NCBI GenBank assembly: GCA_016748015.1
Contig: JAAOMT010000040.1
Coordinates: forward strand, 750,754 to 814,753
Direction: 5' to 3'
Length of the DNA stretch: 64,000 nucleotides
From: Geosiphon pyriformis
Taxonomy: Eukaryota > Glomeromycota > Glomeromycetes > Archaeosporales > Geosiphonaceae
Shown here piece by piece: positions 1,758 through 52,115 of the stretch (positions are counted from its first letter, which is position 1; the number at the start of each line of letters is the position of its first letter). A model generated the notes under the pieces. It had not been told where the DNA came from. It did not search any database and worked only from the letters and a program-made list of their open reading frames with translations. A program made the translations under genes and the position numbers.

Positions 1758-2717
1758 TCACCACAACCCAGGATTAATGCGAGATACATCTTCTTGTCGA
1801 TATGAACAATCAAATGGAGAAATTGGAGGTGGTAATGTACGATCGCATGAGTCAAGCACGTCACGTAGGCTTTGATGGGAGTGTAATGCTTTTTTGGATA
1901 GTGAATTTACCCATGAATGAGATTCAGAGTGAAGGCGAGGAGCGTATGGTTTCTTACATTCAATAGGTTCAAGACGTTCGCGAATTTGTTGATCTTGGGG
2001 TTTGGGGATTATTTCATCATGATTGATTTTTTGAGCAGGGCTCGCAGAATCAGGAATAGTGGCTAACATTGGTATCTGTTCATCTGACGAATATCCGCGC
2101 AAGGTCGGTGAACCATGCTCAGATTCATCAGAATTGACTCCACTATTACCAGGATGAGAAGATTCTGAGGCTGGACTTTTCGGAGCTATTTCTGGATTAT
2201 TGTTGTTAATGTTTCCAGCAGCATCTCTTCTTAGTTTCTTTAATGTGCATGCGGCAATGTGTCTGGCTAAAAAACCAGAGCGCGTAAAAGATTTCGTGCA
2301 ACCACTGACAGGACAGTGTTGTGATATATTTGGTGATTCTTGTAAGATATATGTTATTGCGTGATATGCTGGTTGATTTTTAATGTAGATTGTGGTATTG
2401 CGAAACATCACCATAGGATTTTTACCCCTGCGTTGAGGATCTTTTCTTTTGAATTGTTTTTCGTGAATCTTTTTGTGACGCGTCAATTCATCAGAGCGCG
2501 AGAAGCATTTTTCGCATGCTGGACATTTATGAGGTTTTTCACCTGTATGTATTTTCAAATGACGTGTTAGATGCTCTAGTCGAACAAAATTTTTTTGGCA
2601 CATTCGACATTTGTAAGGTCTTTTGCCTTCGTCATTAAGTGAATCAACATAAAGATCGGAAAACAAGGTTGGTTGAGGCTCCGATTCTTGAGGAATCTTG
2701 TGAAGAGTTTTTGCCAT
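1758..2717 (-). CDS. C2H2 zinc-finger protein, CreA/Mig1-like
   Basis: Single-exon gene of 319 codons read on the minus strand, ATG at 2,717. Two adjacent C2H2 fingers occupy residues 37-57 (C37, C40, H53, H57) and 65-85 (C65, C68, H81, H85), joined by a canonical TGEKP linker. Their helices contain RLEHLTRH and SRSDELTRH, the signature of fungal CreA/Mig1 carbon-catabolite repressors that bind GC-box promoters. A third, atypical C2HC finger lies at about 135-157 (C135, C140, H153, C157). The rest is Ser/Pro/Asn-rich and probably disordered. Finger 2 has CX2C rather than the CX4C usual in CreA, so it may belong to a wider Mig1/Egr-like group. A nuclear transcription factor is very likely; glucose repression as its role is inference. 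Confidence 0.85.
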
Positions 2718-5700
2718 GAATTTTTATTTTAAGGTATTAGCTCGTTGCTTTAGAAATGTTGTGCTTTTCAGTTTTTACTTTCAACTTTGATAAAGTTAAG
2801 AGAAGAGAGAGAAATAAAAGGATTGAGCTATACGTCGCAGTCGTAGGAACTTTGTATTTTTAGTCGTGTCCCGTTTTCCCAAGGAAAGTGAATTGATGAG
2901 GTGTTTTGAAAGGGAAAGGGAAGATTAAGAAACGTAAAATTATGTATTGGCTTTAGAGCGCGGATAGAAAGTTATTGGAAATCTTATATTTATACTAGAG
3001 CCTCGTGAATTATGATTTCAGCGGTATTGTCCTAAATTTGGCACAAGATTTTCTGACGATGTGGCAGGTGAGACACATTATCTTGCCTCTGTTTCGCCAT
3101 CGCATTTAGAGGAAATAAACGGGAACTGTGGGAATAGAAAACTAAATTTTCGAAATATCAATTATTATCATGCGTGGTAGTAAAGGGGTAAAAAAGTAAA
3201 CTCAATTTTTTTTCATTCTTCAATTATCCTGATTATGCTAATCAACTTATTAATAAAAATCATCAGCCTCTTATGAAACTTGTGTGCATTGACTTACATT
3301 AAAAAATAGTAAGTCAGGCGTCGAATGATCAAACGAGACTGTTCCCAATGCTCACAAGAAAAGGATAAAATTGGTAAGGAAATATGTAAATCTTGGGTGG
3401 GGAGAATATGTGCAACGGAAAAAACTGACCTGGTCCTGTCAAAAAATTTGCCTTTTCATTTTTGTCTCTTACGCTGCAGTAACACGCAGCCAAATTGCAT
3501 GTTTTCCATGTGATGATTCATGCGGTGTCAGCAAAATACGAGGCAACACGAAACTCAATTGCTCTCTTTGACATTTTTTTTATTGTCCTTAAACTAATAT
3601 TTTTCTTATTTTCAACCTTGTATTGTCATTCAACTGCCCAAGCGCATTCTCACCATTGTTGTTGGTATTCTTGTCTTTAATTCGAAAGCTTCTATCCGTT
3701 GTACGAATAAACAGCGATTTAACCAGCTTTTTAGCACATGTAAAATAAATAATGACATGTAGATAAAACGCGTCAGTATATGTCGAATTGTTCAATTCAT
3801 ACTAGAACCGGTTTCTTTTCTATACCTGTGTATCATTAAAACGCCGATGCGAAGGAATACTGAAAACAATGGTCATGGGAGATAGTTGATCTGAGCGATA
3901 TAGCGATAACAAATACATGGTCAACAAATTTATTTTATATTATATATATATATATTGTATTAGGTAGGTATAGATTGTTCGTTTTAAAAAAAAAATCATT
4001 TAAAATTTCAACTCTAATCTTTCATCATTAAACATATTATCCCGCTTAACCAGCCTCTTTCTTGTTTTTTACAGATATTTCTGCCACGTTTTCTTCTTAT
4101 CGTGATACCGTCTTTTTTCACCATTATTAACTCATAAAACCTGCCTTTTTTAATCATCGAAATCAATCAAAGGTGATACAGGAAAAAAAACGACAGACTT
4201 CCATCCAACAACAAATAATTATCTAGAAGAAAGAAAAACCAAGAAGGGACAGAAAAGACTCGAAGGTTTGCCTTTTAAATATCTAAGGGAGAAAATCGGC
4301 AAATGCGGAAAGGCACCTGGTTTCCAATTAAATATTGTATCATCTTGCCTGCATCAATTTTATGCAATTTCACCTGAATTTTATAAAAACGACTATGTAC
4401 ATTGGGTTCTACCTTATTATTGATCACATGCTGATTCAGTGCTAACGCCGGTAAAAATCCTTTCAACAGCTGATATCAGGTGATTTTATGAAACCATGCG
4501 CAAAATGCGAGCAAATTTGATCGCGAGAATTATTCCGTCCACGCTACCTGCCACGCTTCCAAAAGAATTACCAATTTAATATTTCAATTTTAGCGAATTA
4601 TTTAACTGCAACTTAACGATATTAGGTTTATAATTTGAACATGACATTTTAAATTTTCAAAGCATCCATTGTCAGAATTAATAATACAGAATCAAGTTTT
4701 CTGTATTGATGATCCAACAACATATTTTAGGTTAGAAATAATTGGTAAATTTACGAGCTTTTCCAATCTCAAAAGAAATGAAATCTTTTTTTTTATACGT
4801 GAATTTTGGAATTGCATAAAAATTTATTATAAAATTTCTAATAAATTTGTATCAAACTTTTTAATTATGTAATTTACTTTGATTGTATTTCACTTGATAC
4901 TTATATTTTGACAAATTATTATTACTTTTTATCAATGTGTGATGTTTAGGGCAAAATGGTATTTGATTTAATTAATTCTAAATTTGCGCTTTATTAAAAA
5001 TTAAAAGTTGATAAGATAAATAAATTTTTTAGAACTTGCTTAAATGGCTTAATTTAATTCAAAAAGAACAAATAATGTTTTTAAAACAAAGTTTGAACTA
5101 AATAAAACAAGCTCACTTATTTGGTAGAAAATTGTATTAAAAAAACTATTGTGAGTTAAATATTTCAAAAAAACTCATGTGTATTTTTGAACTTATTTAC
5201 TTTATATTCTTGTAAACTTATAAATCAATAAAATAAATCACAGATTTAATTTATAAAAAAGCCATAATCAAAGATAAAATGAAAAAAAAAGAGTTTAATA
5301 ATTGAAAACCACAAATTTTATTTAAACTTATATTAAAATAATTAAAAAATGTGTAAAACAAAAACTTTTATTTATGGGATTAATTTCAATAAAAAATTAT
5401 TATAAATATTTTAATATTAATATGAGTATTGAAAGATATCTGTATTATAAGTTTAATTTACTAAAAATTTTATTTTTACATGAAACAATCTGGCTGTGTT
5501 TACAATCAAATATATTATTCTTATTTATGCTTCAATAGTTATAATGACTCTTAAAAAAAATCACAAACTATAGCATTTATTTTAATTATATGATTATACA
5601 AGTCCTAACAAAAACAGTTACTTTCAAATTGATTGCTTTTTAAGTTAATATTATGTAAACTAAATGTAAAACTTTTTCAAAGAACATAAATATTCAATGG

Positions 5701-14963: not shown

Positions 14964-17090
14964 TTTTCCAAAAACTATTGAGGAAAATATTTACAAAATT
15001 TAGAAACCAAATAAATTTTATCGATTAACAAACTCTGATTATAAATATTACCCATATTTAAGTCTCTATAATTAATTTATTTGATATTTAGTAATTATAT
15101 AATTTCTAAATATTTTATTTATACATGGATCAAATTGCTTTTGAAAAAAGATTTTTTTTTCTATTTTTTAAGAGACTTGATCAGTTTTTATAAATCTATG
15201 GTATATATAAAAGAGTTTTAAGTCTTGATTTTCTTGGTAATAATATCTTTAAATATAATATGTCATATTTGAACAAACTAAAATCTTTTAAATTATATTG
15301 ATATTAATATTCATAATTTTTTTATAACTTTTTTGTTGAAAAACTTCTTTTTCTATTTTTTAAAAAAACTACAAAAAACAATAGTTGCAGAAAGTCTTGA
15401 GCCAAATCATACTTATTTTCATCAAATGATGGGTGATCGTAAAAGTAAAATTAAATAAATTAAGCAATTATATTTCGGACAGTGAATAAAGAGAGTTTGA
15501 TAGTGAGATAATTAATTTTCCCGATCCATTTTTATGCCTATACTGGTTATTCTATAAATAAGTAATGAGTATAATTTAGGTCGTCAGATAAATAAAAAAT
15601 TCAACTCCGTTGAAGTAATATTCACCATCTGAATGTTTGGATAATTATGAGAAGAATTTTTATGAAGTTTATTATTTGAACAACTCGAATTAGAAAGTGA
15701 TCTAGTAGATTTTTTTAAAATTGCAATTGTTTCTTGTGTAAATATTAAATTTCTTGAAAATTTTTTTTTTTTTATATAGTTTTGCAGCAACTATGAGACA
15801 CGTCAATTCAAGCTTCTCATTTCATTATGATCCTTATTTTGGTAAAATCATAGGATATTGTTGTCCAGAATCATATCTCTGCTTTTCATTCATTTGTAAA
15901 TTGCTTAACTCAATTACATAGAGTAAAGTTAGAAAAATTTTTAGTATATTGTATGATTAAGCAGTTAATTTCGCAAAGATGTTTCCAAATACCATAAATA
16001 AATTTGAAAATATTTATAATTCCAGTGTTCAATTAGCCAGTTAATCAAGCATTTAAATTTTGTTTAAGATGAACAAACTCTTTTAAAATAATTTTGCTTC
16101 TTCCTAATTTAACGATTATTTTTTATCCACTAGCTTTTTAATCACAAAAAGAAAGTAGAGATCAAATTAAAATTGTAAGAATAATTTAATATTTTTGTTA
16201 AAGTTCTTAAATTTACAGGAAATTGCACAAAAATTATTATGAAATAATAAAATAAAATAAAACTTGAAACAGAATAATTTTGAAAAATTTAAATATAATT
16301 GTAGATCCAAAATTGAATATTCGCAAGCCTTTACAAAAAATTAGAAATTGTCTTGATACACTTTATGCTTTAAATCCCAGATTTTGAAATTTGAAAAAAA
16401 TTTCATTTCCAACTTAATGAAAAAGAAATTAAGAAGTATAGAAATTTCATTTGTGGTCTTAAACATAAGCTAAATAATCTTTAATGCATTGATCCCATAG
16501 AGGCTGATTTTTTTAATTATGACCATAGTTGCAACTAGAACTTCAATTCTTTTTGAAATAATGGTAATAACTTGACATACTAATATTGTATTTTTTTTCC
16601 AATGGTAAAATATTTTGTAATTTAAATACACTAAATTTTCTTTTTAATGTTTCAAATCATACTGAGAATATTGAGCGAAGTTTAGCTATTAAAATGTCAC
16701 TCAAAGCTTTATTTAATATCAAGAACCAATTAAAAAGTTCAATTTCCCTTATCACTTTTCTTTTGGGACTAAACTATATCTTGTTGAAAAAGCGCTGGAG
16801 GCTCCTAAAGAAGTTGAAATAAGAAAAAAGCAAAATTCTAATGTTCTTTCAATTCGCACCGATCATATAATTAATTGGACAATCGCTGTTATACAAGAAA
16901 AAATATTTTACCCATCCCAAATTTTAAAAGCCAGATAATTTTTTTCCCAAACCAGATATTTCACAGCCTGTTAATTTATCTAGTCTCAATAAGAGTTTTG
17001 ACACTAAAAGAAAATTTATATCAAAAAGAATTTCCCAAGAGAGAAAAACTCTCATAGGTCAATCCCAGTACGATATTCTGAAATTTTATA
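14964..17090. other. Intergenic AT-rich region left of the DNA transposon
   Basis: Very AT-rich. Short frames at 15,584, 16,586 and 16,875 show no motif and are not called. The region ends at the TA dinucleotide (17,089-17,090) that is the target duplication of the transposon. Confidence 0.5.
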
Positions 17091-17117
17091 TGGTGCAAAC
17101 CATTTATAGTCATCAAA
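17091..17117 (+). repeat. Left terminal inverted repeat
   Basis: Matches the reverse complement of 22,777-22,803 at 26 of 27 bases (one G/A difference). The same sequence starts the second copy at 51,495. Confidence 0.9.
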
Positions 17118-17429
17118 CAATTTATATAATTTTAAATTGTATCTAGTCTTCCAATTTTAATAATATTAAAAAACTAAACTGTAAATATGATAGATTAAGT
17201 TCTTCTCTTTCACATTTACAGTTTAATTTTTTGAATTATATTATATTTTATAAAGTTATTAAAGTTTAAAATTAGCCACTTCTATTATTAATCTTTAATT
17301 TTCGGATGCCGATCAATCAGATTTTAGCCAATAAGCAATCATTAAAGTCACGTTACCACGTAATAAATCATCAAAGTATTATCATTTTCAGAAAGGTTTT
17401 CAATAAATATTATTCTAATCATTAGATGA

Positions 17430-20300
17430 TCACTTTTTTATAAAAATATAATATCTCTCGGCCTGCATGTCTTCTGCTGGTGACATGGCACCATTAATCA
17501 TAAATATTCCATTTACACCACTATTATATTCGGTTATCATTATCAAGACAAAAACCCAAATATCAATATTGTTTATATCAGGTGCCAAAACAATCATAAA
17601 AGTACTATAAATAATTGTCAAAGAATTTGGGAATGTCATTTGCACTTTATTTGTAATCTTGTGTTTTTCTTGATAAACATTGGAAACAACCAGCTATGGT
17701 GCTGGAAGCAGCAGATTTGAAGCAAGAATTAGAATAATTGTAATATAATTGGCTGTTAACTTAAGAGTAATACTGTGAACAAAATATTTACTATTAAGAA
17801 ACATTGTAAAAGATCAATTACTCATCTTAACTATTATATCTTGAAACAAGAGTGCAGCTCAAAATTTATGAAAAAAATTAATACAATTAATTTTTTAATA
17901 AATAAACTCTGCAGTAAATTATAGATGACTTAACATTATATATTATAATGTTTAAAGCATGCATCTTAGAGTGAGCAATACTATTTGATGACTTGGTAGA
18001 TGTCTCTAATTTCTTTTTATTCATGGTTAAAAAAGTCTGCCAAATGCTTTTGTAAACACTATAATTGTTGACTTTCATGTAATTCTTAGGTTTTTTTGTA
18101 TAGTAAGTTCAATATCTGTCTTGTTATCTAATATTTAATCAATAATTTGCATTCTATCAAAGTTGGTTTCTTTTTCTATGTATTTGTTTTCATTATGTAA
18201 ATACATTAGTTCAGACAGATATGAAGTTTTTTCTGAAAATCTTAAAACAAAGCTTTCAAAATAAATTAAGGAAACTGAATAGAATAATGTTGTAGTTGAA
18301 AACAATTGATCATATAACTTGACTATTAAATTAGACAAAATATATGGCTGGCTAATATTTGTATCATCCGAAACTTTGATTTTCAACTTTATTTTTCTAA
18401 ATGTTTATTTTATATATGCTAATTTTCAAAGACATTTGTTAGTTTTTGTTGTTGTATAGTGGCATATAATAATAGAAATATAAATAGAAAAAAAATTTGT
18501 TTATTTTGAGTTTTTAATGTATTATCAATTGATTTTTGATTAAGAATATACTGCATAAAAGAAATCAAAACAGATTCTGTTAAAAAACTTTCTATAATTT
18601 ATGGTGTTAAATAGTATATTATGTGTACTAATATAACTTCAGATACAAAGAGAAGTATTTTTCTAATTGTTAATAGTAGTAAAAAATTTCAATACCACTA
18701 CATATGAAGATTTATATACATGAATATTATTGTTATTAAATTCTTCAAGATATCCTATAAATAGATTCTATGGAATTAAACTTACAGTAATTACATAATA
18801 ATTTTAAAACAAATGTTATATCTTAAACATAATATAACATTTTTCTACAATATCTTGCATCATATATTTTTCAATAACTGATGTTTTGAACACTTTTTTT
18901 TTGTAAAATTTTAGGAATAGATTGTGTTTTATCTGGTAAAAGAAATAATTAAAAGCTTAAAAATGTAAAACATAAGAGTAGCATTTATGATTAAAAATTA
19001 ATTTAATTAGATCTGAAAAAAAAAGAATCTGCAAACCATTTTTGCAATCTATAAAAGATAAAAAACAGTAAGCAACTTTGAAAATTTTGACCAGCATCAT
19101 TTTTATTATAATGTAAATACTTATTTTGAATTTACAAATAACTTTTCAATGATTATAATATTGTATTTCAAAGAATTACTTGGATCTAAAAGATATATGA
19201 AATTCTCTGTAATAAAAGTTTCTGGTTAAATTTAATATTTGAATGATGAATTATACCAAAAAAAATATAATAACTAAAATACTTATTATATATTCGACCA
19301 AATTATGATCTAATTTTAGAATTGGTTTCTAAGCTGTAAAAAAAATTTCAATTGTTGAATATTTTAACAACTTATTAAAATATTATATATAATAGCTTAT
19401 AATAGTATTCAAGAAACTTATATTAGTTAGTGTTAATTTAGGGGAATTAGGTTGGAATTGAATAATCTTTGGCTTTACCTTGATTAAAAAAACTGAAATT
19501 GTCTTAAAGCTTATAACTTTGAATAACTCTTTTTTATTAATGTTATATATTTTCTAATAAGTTTGTTTTAATGCAAAAAATGTATGAAATGTATTAGTTT
19601 AAATAGATAAAACCCAGATTTTTTTGTAAAGGTCTAATAAACTTCTCACTTGTAAGAATTTGGCATCTTTGAAAATACATAAATTATCATTAAAATACAT
19701 GGCATTTTTAAAATCAATTGTAAATTCTGATTAAATTCATAAATAAATAATATTCTTTTCGAATTTTTTATTAATATAATATAGAAAACATATGTCAAGT
19801 GTTAAGTGACTGATAAGAAAGAAATGCATAGTACCAATTTCGATCATGTTTAAGGATTTTGGTTCTTTGATTACATTATAATATTTTGGATATTTTTCTT
19901 TGGATAATAAATTCATAAATAATTTGGCATATTATCAACTACTGAATATGAAAATAAGAGATCACAACTAGACTGTAATACTAAAAATTGAAATCTATCT
20001 CAAATATTCTTATTTACTATCTTTTTGATCAATATTATTTGCAATAAATCTTTCATTAGCTCTGAGAAATTGGCTTCAATTTGAAAATTAGATTTCTTTT
20101 GAGTTAGTTATTTAATTGTCAATGTTAGATTTTTTTGCCCAAATTTTTTGTCATAAGTCAAAGAGGTTTTTGTGATAACTATTTTTATTAATGTTACCTG
20201 AATTTTCAGTTCAGATGATCTTCTCAATCCCAATAAAAAATTTCTTTTGATTATTGCTGAAGGTGCTTTCTTTGATTGCTTTTTATCCAAAACTACAAAA
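17430..20300 (-). pseudogene. Unidentified transposon ORF, opposite strand to the transposase
   Basis: Minus-strand coding remnants run from about 20,300 (reads KKAPSAIIKRNFLLGLRRSS) through 18,386-18,135 to a C-terminal block ending at 17,430. That block contains NNIDIWVFV, ITEYNSGVNGIF and QAERYYIFIKK. The C-terminal block is also found at 51,850-52,115 in the second copy with many synonymous or conservative changes, so it was under coding constraint. The parts in between are broken by stops and probably by introns; exact exons are not resolved. I do not recognise the family. The orientation, divergent from the transposase, suggests a second element-encoded protein. Confidence 0.5.
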
Positions 20301-20476
20301 CAGAAATTAAAGTTTAAATTAAAACCAAAGAGATTTAAAAAATAGATATATATCTAAGTTAAAAACGCCATTTTTATTGTAATACAATTTTGTTGTATAA
20401 CATTACATGGTTTAAATTCTTTAATTCTGTTCAAGCACCAATTACACACTAGATTAATATCACATTACATAAAAAA

Positions 20477-22619
20477 ATGCCACTTCATTTTAAAGAAAAA
20501 AGAAAAGCTAAAAATCAAGTTAGAAATATAAAAAAATCATATAAAAAAACACATTATACCACTTTAATAAATAATTATAATATTAAAGTAAACAAATTTA
20601 ACAGATTAAATGTTAGTAATAAAAAGTGAAGTGACAATAATAACAGTAGATGGGATAATACAGAAAATATAGAAGCTGTAATTAGAATAAATATAAAATT
20701 AAAAAAACTTAGTTTAGTATGAAAAAACAACAATCATTTAGAAAAAAAGAAGCAAGACTTTTACATAACAAAAAAATACCAAAGTTAATCTATTATAATA
20801 AATATGGACCAAATGATTTATTCACCAAAGTAGCAGTTGAAACTAAAAAAATTATTACTTTTTTTAATATTAGTAATACTCAAACTACAGGCTTACAATG
20901 GCCCAAATTTAATAAATCTTCAAGTAATTCAGAAAGTAAGGTTGATCTATATGCTAGTTAAATAAAAAAAGGGCAAAAGTTAAAAGAATATTTAAAAAAA
21001 CAACATGTTCAGTTAATTGTTATCAAATATAATCAAAAAAGAGCTATTTTTGAATATTTTACTTTGTTAAATAATAATAATGAACATGAAAAAATTAATG
21101 CCAATTTGAAAATTACCCAGAAGATTTTTATTGATGGTAATATATGAAAAGCATGAAAAATTCGATATTTAGCAAAGTATTAGTTGCTTAATAATAAGCT
21201 TTCAACATTAAAATATAGAAAACATCAAAAAACAATTAAAATAATTGATGATAAAAACATTGTAAAAAGATGTTATATTTGGATTAAAAACCAAACTTTA
21301 ATGTTACTCCAGTCATATTTAAAAAATTTATTGAGCATGAATTGTTTTTTAATATTGGAATAATGAAGAAAAAAAATATTAGTCTTATAACTGTAGTAAG
21401 ATGGCTTAAAATTCTTGGTTATTTATTTCAACAATATCATCAAGGCTTATATTATGATAAACATAAAAAAAATGATATCTTATAATCTCGAAAAGAATTT
21501 TAAAAAAAAATATATGAGCATAAAAAGTATATGTCAAAGTATGAAGATAAATTTATGAATTGAATACATCCTAACTTACTTAATAGAAAAAAAAAGTTTT
21601 TATAGTTCATAATAAATGCATTTTTTATTCAAATAATATTAAATATGGCATATAAGCTAAGCATAAAAATTTGCCACTAAGAAAAAAAGAAAATAAAAGA
21701 TCAATTATAATCAATGAATTTTTAATTGAAATTAATAGATATTTACATTTACAACAAAATAATATAAAAAACTATTTTAATATACCAAAAAAGACACAAT
21801 GCTATTTATAACCTAGTGTAAATTAAGATAATTATTGGACAGCAGACCATCTTTTTAAACAAATTAAATATAAAACAATTCCAATTTTTGAGAAATTATA
21901 TCTAGATTATATAACCATATTTGCTTTTGATAATAGTTCTAATCATGTAGTATTTAGTAAAGATGCTTTAATTGTAAGCAAAATAAATTTAAGTCTAGGT
22001 AAAAAGCAATTATTAATGCAAAATACTTTTTTTGGATTAGATAATCAATTACAATTAATGATCTTTCTGGAAACATATTCAGATGAAAAACTTTAAAGAT
22101 TGCCTAAAAGAATTAAACAAGTATTAATAGAATAAAAAAAATGGTCATTAAAAAGATTAATATTAGAATGCAAAAAATGCAAAAAAAAAATCAAAAATTC
22201 TTTGAAAGTTTTTTGTTGTGCATATTAAGTAATATCTTTGGAATCCAATTTTTTGTTCAAAAAAATACAATTGAAGAATTAATCAAAAGTATAGGACATA
22301 AGTGCATTTTTTTCCAAAATGTCATTGCAAATTAAATTTTATTGAAAGATATTGGGGAGCTGTTAAAAGAATTGCATGTAACAAATACAATTATTCATGG
22401 AAAAAATTACAAAGAACAGTGTCTGAAAGTCTTGAATCAGTATTTTTAATGACTATCAGACGATTTTCAAGAAAATTTTGGTGTTATATAGAGCTTTATA
22501 GAAAAAATCTTAGTGGAAAATTCGTAGAATATGTTATAAAAAAGTATAAATCTCATAGAAGAATTCCAGATAATATTCTTGAAGAATTAGACAAATTAAA
22601 TAATATTCAAACTTTGTAA
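20477..22619 (+). pseudogene. DDE transposase remnant
   Basis: Starts with an ATG at 20,477 (MPLHFKEKRKAKNQ) and continues through many frameshifts and stops to 22,619. Clear landmarks are an FDNSSNH block near 21,930 holding the second acidic residue, and near 22,330-22,560 the block LNFIERYWGAVKR followed by KKYKSHRRIPDNI. NFIExxWxxxK is the third-acid motif of the Tc1/mariner-IS630 DDE/DDD fold, and the tail resembles a transposase family common in fungal genomes (recalled, not searched). Located between the divergent promoter gap and the right TIR. Inactive. Confidence 0.8.
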
Positions 22620-22776
22620 TATTGTATTTGGTTTTATATTATATAAAATTTAATAAAATTTTATTTTTTATTATAAATAATATATTAAAAACACATGTAT
22701 ATTAACCAATAAAATTTAATTATATAAATAAAAACACGTGAAGATCATCATTTAAAATTTCGGACTGATCTACATT

Positions 22777-22803
22777 TTTGATGATTATAAATGGTTTGCA
22801 CCA
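22777..22803 (-). repeat. Right terminal inverted repeat
   Basis: Ends in GGTTTGCACCA followed by TA; complementary to 17,091-17,117. Confidence 0.9.
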
Positions 22804-24888
22804 TATACATTTCATTGCTACTTTCTTTAAAAATTTTATAAAATGATATTAGTTTACACTTTTTATATTTTTAACTTTCGAACCTCACTAAAACCAGCAG
22901 CATTTAAATTTTTAAGTTTGATTTTGAATATATGTCTAATCAAGCAATATTAATAACATTTTGGTTTTTTAATTTTCAAATAAATATGTGCAATATCCAA
23001 TTAAAATGAACTAAATCCTTCTGAAAGGTGAACATTTAAAATACTGTTGCATTAAAACATTAATGCAGAACGTTTATGCGGTAAAATATTAAAAAGATCG
23101 ACAGCCATTTTTTAGGTTTGTAAATTAATAATTTCGGACTTTGAAGATTTCAAATGTCAAAGTGAATTGCTGCTAAAGAATTGAAAATGTTTACATTTCC
23201 AATTAAAACTACTTGCAATCTCCTTGGTTCTATATTAATTGGCTTCAATATGAAACTTTACATCAATAAAGCTCTTTGATATGGACGTTAAAATCAAAAG
23301 GTTTTTTTTTTTGCTTCGAAGCTGACTATTATTATGCTGTTTCAGCATGTCTTCATTATAAATTCAAAACATGATCGATTTAGCAAGTTTTAATTAGTCC
23401 AATTGCTTTAAGGTTGAGTTTTAATTTATTTTGGATAATAAAGATTTGGAAAATACACTTTTCTCAGTTATTATAAACCACTTTAAATATTCTTTTTTCC
23501 CATCTAATTATTAAATAGTATAACTAGAAATTAAATTAAAATATTTTTTCCAAATAAATAAACAGTTTAGCGATTATTTGAAAAATAAAAACTTTTTAAG
23601 GTTTTTGACTATTTACAATAGACATTACAAGGATCTTTATTGGGAGAAAATCCTTAATTTGAGGCTTTCCTGTTGCAAATTCTCATAATAATATGAATAT
23701 ACCCAGCAATTTTATACATTTCTCTCTTAAAAATTCTATTGAATTAATTCATATATTCCCTTTTTTCCTTGCTGCTATCGTTTTATTGTTTACAAATTGA
23801 CATAATCTAAGGTCATCAACTCTTATTTTATGTTTAGTATATTCTACGTGATTGTCAGCTAAATTTTTGAATGAATAGTTTCTTCTTAAACAAATATTAT
23901 CCATAGAACAAAGATTTATCTGCATGGTATATCTGCATTTAGCATAACCTATTTGTATTGCTTTCTGAAACAACATATCAATTATCCAAAACCTCAAGCT
24001 ATTGATTTTGTGAACAACTATATATTTAGTCTTTTTTCAATCGAAATATATTTTGACCTTACTCGAATTCTTAAAATGAGGAGTATCCCAATTTTATACT
24101 ATCAAACAGATTTCTATTTGCAAAAGAAATCGGAAAAAATAAAATAAATTCTAATCATAAAACGTGTGTTACTGCTTCCAAAATTTTATTTTTATTCACT
24201 AAAAGAAACAAAAACTGAAATGGGTTATTTAATTTTATCTTTGAAAAGTCTATTTTCAAAAAAAGGAGATTATAATTGCCTCTATAGCAAACCTATTCGT
24301 GAAATCTAGCTTCACTTTATAATTTTAATTTTGAGATAACATAAAAAAAAAAAAAAAAAAGAAAATTCTAAAAGATCTTTTTTTTATTTCTCTAAAGCGA
24401 GAAATTGAATAACTGGACTTTGAACTTCATATACGCTTTTTGCTCGTAACTAATCAAACAATATAATATAAAAATATGACTATCACTTATTTATCGAAGG
24501 TTGATACCAACCTTCTCAATTTTCAAAATTTTTAACATTGAAGAGATAGTTAAAAAATTTCATACTTCTTCATAATTGATTAGTGGTTAAATATATAACT
24601 AATTATTCTTACAATCGAAATTTTGACCCATTGATTTTTCGTTTGGATGAGTGAATTCCAACTTGACAATTTTTTGAAAAATCAAAAAGTTTAAAAAATT
24701 TCAAAATCATAATATCATATTAGGGTTTGCGAGAAAAACAGATTGCCAGTTAGGAAACTAAAAAGTCTCACTAAGTTTCATAGCCTATACTAAATTAACT
24801 TATGATAATTTACATATCTGCTCTAGTAAAACATATTAGCTCTAGGAGCTTTAATTTTAATAAACACTATATATTCTAAAAAATAATA
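22804..24888. other. Intergenic AT-rich region
   Basis: Two kilobases between the transposon and the kelch gene with no supported coding frame. A poly-A run lies near 24,344-24,360. The last part is the 3' flank of the kelch gene. Confidence 0.5.
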
Positions 24889-51494: not shown

Positions 51495-52115
51495 TATGGT
51501 GCAAACCATTTATAGTCATCAAACAATTTATATAATTTTAAATTGTATCTAGTCTTCCAATTTTAATAATATTAAAAAACTAAACTGTAAATATGATAGA
51601 TTAAGTTCTTCTCTTTCACATTTACAGTTTAATTTTTTGAATTATATTATATTTTATAAAGCTATTAAAGTTTAAAATTAGCCACTTCTATTATTAATCT
51701 TTAATTTTCGGATGCCGATCAATCAGATTTTAGCCAATCAGCAATCATCAAGGTCACGTTACCACGTGATAATCATCAAAGTATTATCATTTTCAGAAAG
51801 ACTTTTAATTAATATTAATCTAATCTTTAAATGATTACTTTTTTATAAAGATATAATATCTCTCGGCCTGCGTATCTGGTAACACGGCACCATTAACAAT
51901 GAATATTTTATTTACACCACCACTATATTCAGTTGTTATTATTGGGACAAAAATCCAAATATCAATATTATTTATATTAAGTGTTAAAAGAATTGTAAAA
52001 GTACTATGAGTAATAAGATCAAGATATGAGATCTGGTTTGAATATCCTGTTAGTGTTGTTTGGAATTGTATATTGTTATAATTTACTGATCTGAATGGTA
52101 TATTAATAAGTTGTG
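51495..52115. mobile_element. Truncated second copy of the TIR transposon left end
   Basis: Starts with the same TGGTGCAAACCATTTATAG TIR preceded by TA and follows 17,091-17,600 closely, with scattered substitutions. On the minus strand it retains the C-terminal block of the unidentified ORF (FQTTLTGYSNQISYLDLI, NNIDIWIFVPIITTEYSGG, QAERYYIFIK), better preserved than in copy 1 and extending further upstream. Similarity fades at about 52,115 and no matching right TIR was found before 63 kb. Confidence 0.85.

Follow-up and report, generated by a model that had tools for sequence, protein, structure and literature searches.

A transposon copy of 5.7 kb with terminal inverted repeats (TIRs) occupies positions 17091-22803 of the window (the whole 64,000-nucleotide stretch of DNA that was analyzed). 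It is very probably the dead copy of a TA-inserting element which carried, beside its own transposase gene, a captured polybromo/RSC-type gene as a passenger that was broken before the family spread, and which was later hypermutated from C to T. The two genes read away from each other across a central gap, as laid out here in window positions.

17089-17090, no strand: left TA target-site duplication, from the sequence
17091-17117, plus strand: left terminal inverted repeat, 27 bp, from an inverted-repeat scan
17127-17274: subterminal imperfect palindrome of ~148 bp (element 37-184), from self-reverse matches and a hairpin
17430-17849, minus strand: last exon of the captured gene, coding for the RSC4 Ig-like domain up to the stop codon (PF22994 at E=1.7e-4, narrowly short of the cut-off; ~65% amino acid identity to the host gene C379)
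18186-18577, minus strand: linker exon region of the captured gene, resembling the C379 linker by eye
18648-18755, minus strand: BAH exon 4
18828-18929, minus strand: BAH exon 3, with a 1-nt deletion at its end in copies keeping the segment and a 15-nt deletion there in the window copy
19012-19047, minus strand: BAH exon 2 (part)
19124-19207, minus strand: BAH exon 1 (PF01426 on the joined exons)
19422-19553, minus strand: exon after the bromodomain
19650-19744, minus strand: exon for the C-terminal part of the bromodomain; two 1-nt deletions in it are common to essentially all copies
19839-19931, minus strand: bromodomain N-terminal exon (PF00439, E=2.4e-6 alone)
20021-20293, minus strand: exon upstream of the bromodomain
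20294-20476, no strand: central gap of about 180 bp separating the two divergent genes
20477-22619, plus strand: transposase pseudogene, DDE_3-like, ancestral frame of 716 codons, D-(105)-D-(133)-E
22777-22803, minus strand: right terminal inverted repeat, from an inverted-repeat scan
22804-22805, no strand: right TA target-site duplication, from the sequence

The ends are those proposed in an earlier sequence-only reading of this DNA, namely 27-bp TIRs (TGGTGCAAACCATTTATARTCATCAAA), equal at 26/27 bases, between TA duplications. Across the family, TA lies directly outside the TIR at 43/43 readable element ends (27 loci) while the outer flanks differ, and the insertion site is plain in one short copy, which reads GGATA-element-TAGGTC. 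The rightward remnant of a DDE transposase and a leftward ORF across the central gap had likewise been recognized, and both were recovered here, the latter as an intron-containing gene (about 20293-17430) that can now be given an identity (polybromo/RSC type); the block at 17430-17645 proved to be the terminal part of its last exon. The subterminal palindrome is present in many copies, short derivatives included, and may be a transposase-binding or structural feature. A second, partial copy lies within the window at 51497-52010, where TA and the left TIR (element 1-521) are followed by unrelated, very AT-rich DNA.

DNA searches of the 124.7-Mb genome (406 contigs) with the left, middle and right parts of the element, in each of which 40 candidates were scored, returned almost exclusively matches of ~81-95% identity. 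Because the family recurs genome-wide, the element is not a chance arrangement. It comprises dozens of long copies and about 20 complete 1.25-kb short derivatives, the best five of which are mutually 99% identical; full copies measure ~5.7 kb, and all full-length copies retain the whole leftward-gene region. Differences among the copies relative to a plain majority consensus amounted to about 15 transitions per transversion, and a transition-corrected consensus was therefore built from a multiple alignment, with C chosen over T and G over A wherever at least 20% of copies have it, and indels decided by majority. This C/G-favoring rule makes exact consensus residues uncertain and leaves indels unaffected. 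The correction is supported by the 1.25-kb copy L064, left out of consensus building, which agreed at 98% over its first 574 bp, as against 92% with the window copy.

With copies collected and a consensus built, as the sequence-only reading had advised, both ORFs were tested for coding frame and domains; the transposase came out in one frame and the leftward gene frame-broken. In the corrected consensus the transposase forms a single 716-codon frame with no frame lesions; the three stops left in it all lie at codons that transitions account for. Its sole Pfam match was DDE_3 (PF13358; E=5e-5, 23.5 bits, below the cut-off of 28.6), confined to the surroundings of the final catalytic residue, and no PDB chain matched; the triad was read from motifs as D381 (VVHDE), D487 (FAFDNSS) and E621 (HCELNFIE), with spacings of 105 and 133 residues. 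Programmed frameshifting at an A-run of the transposase was considered and discarded, as the apparent shifts reflected gap placement in a first consensus and were gone in the multiple alignment. Ciliate and euplotid genetic codes, tried on account of the many in-frame TAA and TAG codons, were also rejected, since the standard code leaves other genes of the window open and the stops derive from C-to-T change. A more distant relative of the transposase (33% identity) is found at C119:36777-37826, on a contig with no bromodomain match.

The leftward gene is identified by its sequence matches as the C-terminal half of a polybromo/RSC1-RSC2-RSC4-type gene. It follows the domain order of these genes (bromodomain, BAH, RSC4 Ig-like), and its joined exons matched the Pfam bromodomain (PF00439, E=4.5e-12) and BAH (PF01426, E=1.5e-18) families, with polybromo-1 (1e-88), RSC2 (1e-27) and Rsc1 (3e-25) as best PDB matches. 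One close host gene of this type was found in the genome, on the minus strand of contig C379 at about 295.6-301.8 kb and read from three overlapping loci; it has introns and encodes two successive bromodomains followed by BAH and the Ig-like end. Collinearity of the captured piece with the second half of C379, together with matching intron positions where both are readable, shows that this piece was taken up as genomic DNA. Another host gene with bromodomain and BAH (C324:798899-802024) is only ~34% identical to the C379 BAH.

Over 319 aligned codons from chosen conserved stretches, captured gene and C379 share 74% amino acid identity, and their differences fall at codon positions 1/2/3 in numbers of 49/42/160. 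Synonymous sites are saturated (pS 0.74) and pN is 0.14, with a 95% interval for pN/pS of 0.15-0.23, the choice of conserved stretches having lowered pN. Such strong constraint implies that the captured gene was constrained for most of the time since its split from C379; it would have been working, perhaps in another species, until shortly before it was captured or lost. Two histories fit the constraint: the gene may have been captured recently, from a distant relative or from a paralogue that has since disappeared, or it may have served for long within the element.

Its shared lesions show that the captured gene was already frame-broken in the ancestor from which the sampled copies descend; it is not a conserved functional partner. 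In the bromodomain exon, one 1-nt deletion was present in 28/28 copies and another in 25/26, while the 1-nt deletion at the end of BAH exon 3 occurred in all copies retaining that segment (13/13); the linker probably holds a fourth lesion, a frame change. An ancestral stop in the RSC4 Ig exon was rejected as a further candidate, the codon probably being a mutated CGA, with scorable copies reading TGA, CAA or TAA. In a translated genome search, C379 spanned the bromodomain exon in one frame, whereas element matches broke within it, and no intact captured gene was found in the genome, where about 30 long copies were read, several only in part, so that an intact one could lie outside the stretches read. 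A captured-gene frame was reported inside a 1253-codon open frame in a left-end element fragment at C344:579722-580274, which could be a fusion with a neighboring gene. Shared frame lesions in the captured gene, set against a transposase with none in 716 codons, point to a passenger. The conserved opposite-strand partner envisaged in the sequence-only reading is hence a real second gene, divergent and inside the same TIRs, but a broken captured one; that it defines a subfamily does not hold for the sampled copies, given the shared deletions and its partial to almost complete loss in shorter forms.

That loss has proceeded through a small set of deletions.

Window 17932-18858 (element 842-1768): absent from the 4.8-kb form
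Window 17668-19103 (element 578-2013): absent from the 4.3-kb form; the junction also occurs in the 1.25-kb derivatives
Window 19655-22663 (element 2565-5573): second deletion of the 1.25-kb derivatives, which takes out the transposase gene entirely

These forms come close to copies without the minus-strand ORF between the same TIRs, which the sequence-only reading had named as evidence against a conserved partner: BAH and linker exons are partly missing from the 4.8- and 4.3-kb forms, and the 1.25-kb forms have lost the captured gene almost whole. None of the fetched copies bears a transposase while completely lacking the leftward gene. Transversions and C-to-T changes are both generally less numerous in 4.8-kb copies than in full-length ones, so that this partial loss of the captured gene seems to belong to later lineages.

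In our preferred reading, the ancestral element inserted at TA, presumably by cut and paste, and carried its 716-aa DDE transposase on the right and, in the opposite direction on the left, the captured C-terminal half with its introns (second bromodomain, BAH and RSC4 Ig-like). The captured gene was frameshifted before the sampled copies spread, carried on as a passenger and progressively deleted, giving the 5.7-, 4.8-, 4.3- and 1.25-kb forms. As the 1.25-kb forms lack a transposase, they must presumably have been moved in trans. After insertion, copies were hypermutated from C to T on both strands.

It is unlikely that the bromodomain-BAH-Ig gene was instead a long-functional accessory, which for instance directed integration to acetylated chromatin or interfered with RSC, and was broken only in the lineage that spread here. 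Its strongly constrained divergence from the host homologue and the retention of the whole region in all full-length copies speak for such a role, and TET/JBP genes are known as accessories of fungal DNA transposons (PMC12730594); however, a donor genome could just as well have imposed the constraint before the capture, the first half of the host gene is missing from the fragment, at least three frame lesions are shared, and variants with parts deleted still multiplied. We give an equally small chance to a transposon lineage that long carried a working RSC-derived chromatin reader aiding its integration or activity in host chromatin, of which only remains would be seen here. Hardly credible, and contradicted by the copies, is the possibility, named in the sequence-only reading as one that would refute it, that the leftward gene is an independent nested insertion and the locus two unrelated elements: two coding regions of different origin do lie inside one TIR pair, but neither TIRs nor target duplications turned up in the interior, the arrangement is common to the long copies, and the leftward gene is of host type, without a mobility gene.

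The origin of the captured segment is a separate matter, compatible with the passenger reading. It may have come from another fungus, the whole element having arrived by horizontal transfer, since synonymous differences between the captured gene and C379, the only host gene of its kind found, have reached saturation and the search of this genome gave no closer donor. We regard this as possible but doubtful, as the same facts would follow if the capture were old or if a paralogue had been lost afterwards.

The mutational record of the passenger-bearing family was assessed by comparing the window copy, L009-L037 and L064-L070. In long copies, about 15-50% of C and G had been changed relative to the corrected consensus by C-to-T on both strands, compared with ~0.5% for the reverse change and 0.15-1.1% for transversions; the absolute C-to-T rates are somewhat inflated by the consensus rule, of which the ~15:1 transition excess is independent. 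Context had a limited influence, with C-to-T proportions of 0.57 at CpG versus 0.30-0.39, and of 0.41-0.45 after a pyrimidine versus 0.25-0.28. Over the same 1.1 kb, the changed proportion was 3-8% in 5/7 short copies, 16-20% in the other two and 15-51% in long copies, with similar transversions; the contrast might reflect a length threshold for duplicated DNA, as in RIP, or a difference in age. The pattern resembles RIP in that repeated copies changed massively from C to T on both strands while transversions stayed few; it differs in its only weak context preference (CpG and YC), and a RIP-like process is the putative cause. DNA methylase genes (PF00145) are present in the genome, as a family-level match only. 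Low GC, the standard code and genes of kelch, kinase and zinc-finger type suggest that the fungus may belong to the Glomeromycotina. In Gigaspora margarita and in Mucoromycotina, RIP signatures are reported to be missing (PMC8647823).

Among known systems, the element shares TA target duplication, short TIRs and, below the Pfam cut-off, a C-terminal DDE_3-like motif (ELNFIE) with Tc1/mariner (IS630-Tc1-mariner) transposons, whose D2-E(D) spacing is usually about 30-45 residues. Its transposase is ~2x the usual size, and with a D2-E spacing of 133 residues it does not conform to canonical Tc1/mariner; nor is the transposase its sole gene, a second, captured one lying on the other strand. The Tc1/mariner type suggested in the sequence-only reading therefore stands as regards TA target and TIRs, but not as regards DDE spacing and the sole-gene rule. 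As in Pack-TYPE elements and transduplication, an intron-containing host-type gene segment lies between TIRs and was multiplied by transposition; Pack-TYPE elements have been described from plants as non-autonomous (PMC8903248), whereas the long copies here carry their own transposase gene and only the 1.25-kb forms lack one. In type of cargo the element resembles fungal TIR transposons with a chromatin- or DNA-modification gene beside the transposase, including the PHISTA group, which also has TA duplications, but here the accessory is a broken polybromo/RSC fragment and the transposase is DDE_3-like. Fungal Helitrons also capture and multiply pieces of host genes (PMC4289320), though the present element has TIRs and a TA duplication and is not of the rolling-circle type. 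With polybromo-1 and yeast RSC1, RSC2 and RSC4, subunits of SWI/SNF-RSC, the passenger shares the bromodomain-BAH order and the RSC4 Ig-like end, but it is a C-terminal half only, frame-broken and inside a transposon. A literature search, which was not exhaustive, found no report of polybromo/RSC gene capture by a TA-target TIR transposon.

The family provides a clear case of a multi-domain chromatin-remodeller gene, introns included, captured by a fungal TA-targeting TIR transposon, and its deletion forms show the manner in which such cargo is shed. RIP-like hypermutation is moreover preserved in its copies, in a fungus that probably belongs to the Glomeromycotina, a group believed to lack RIP.
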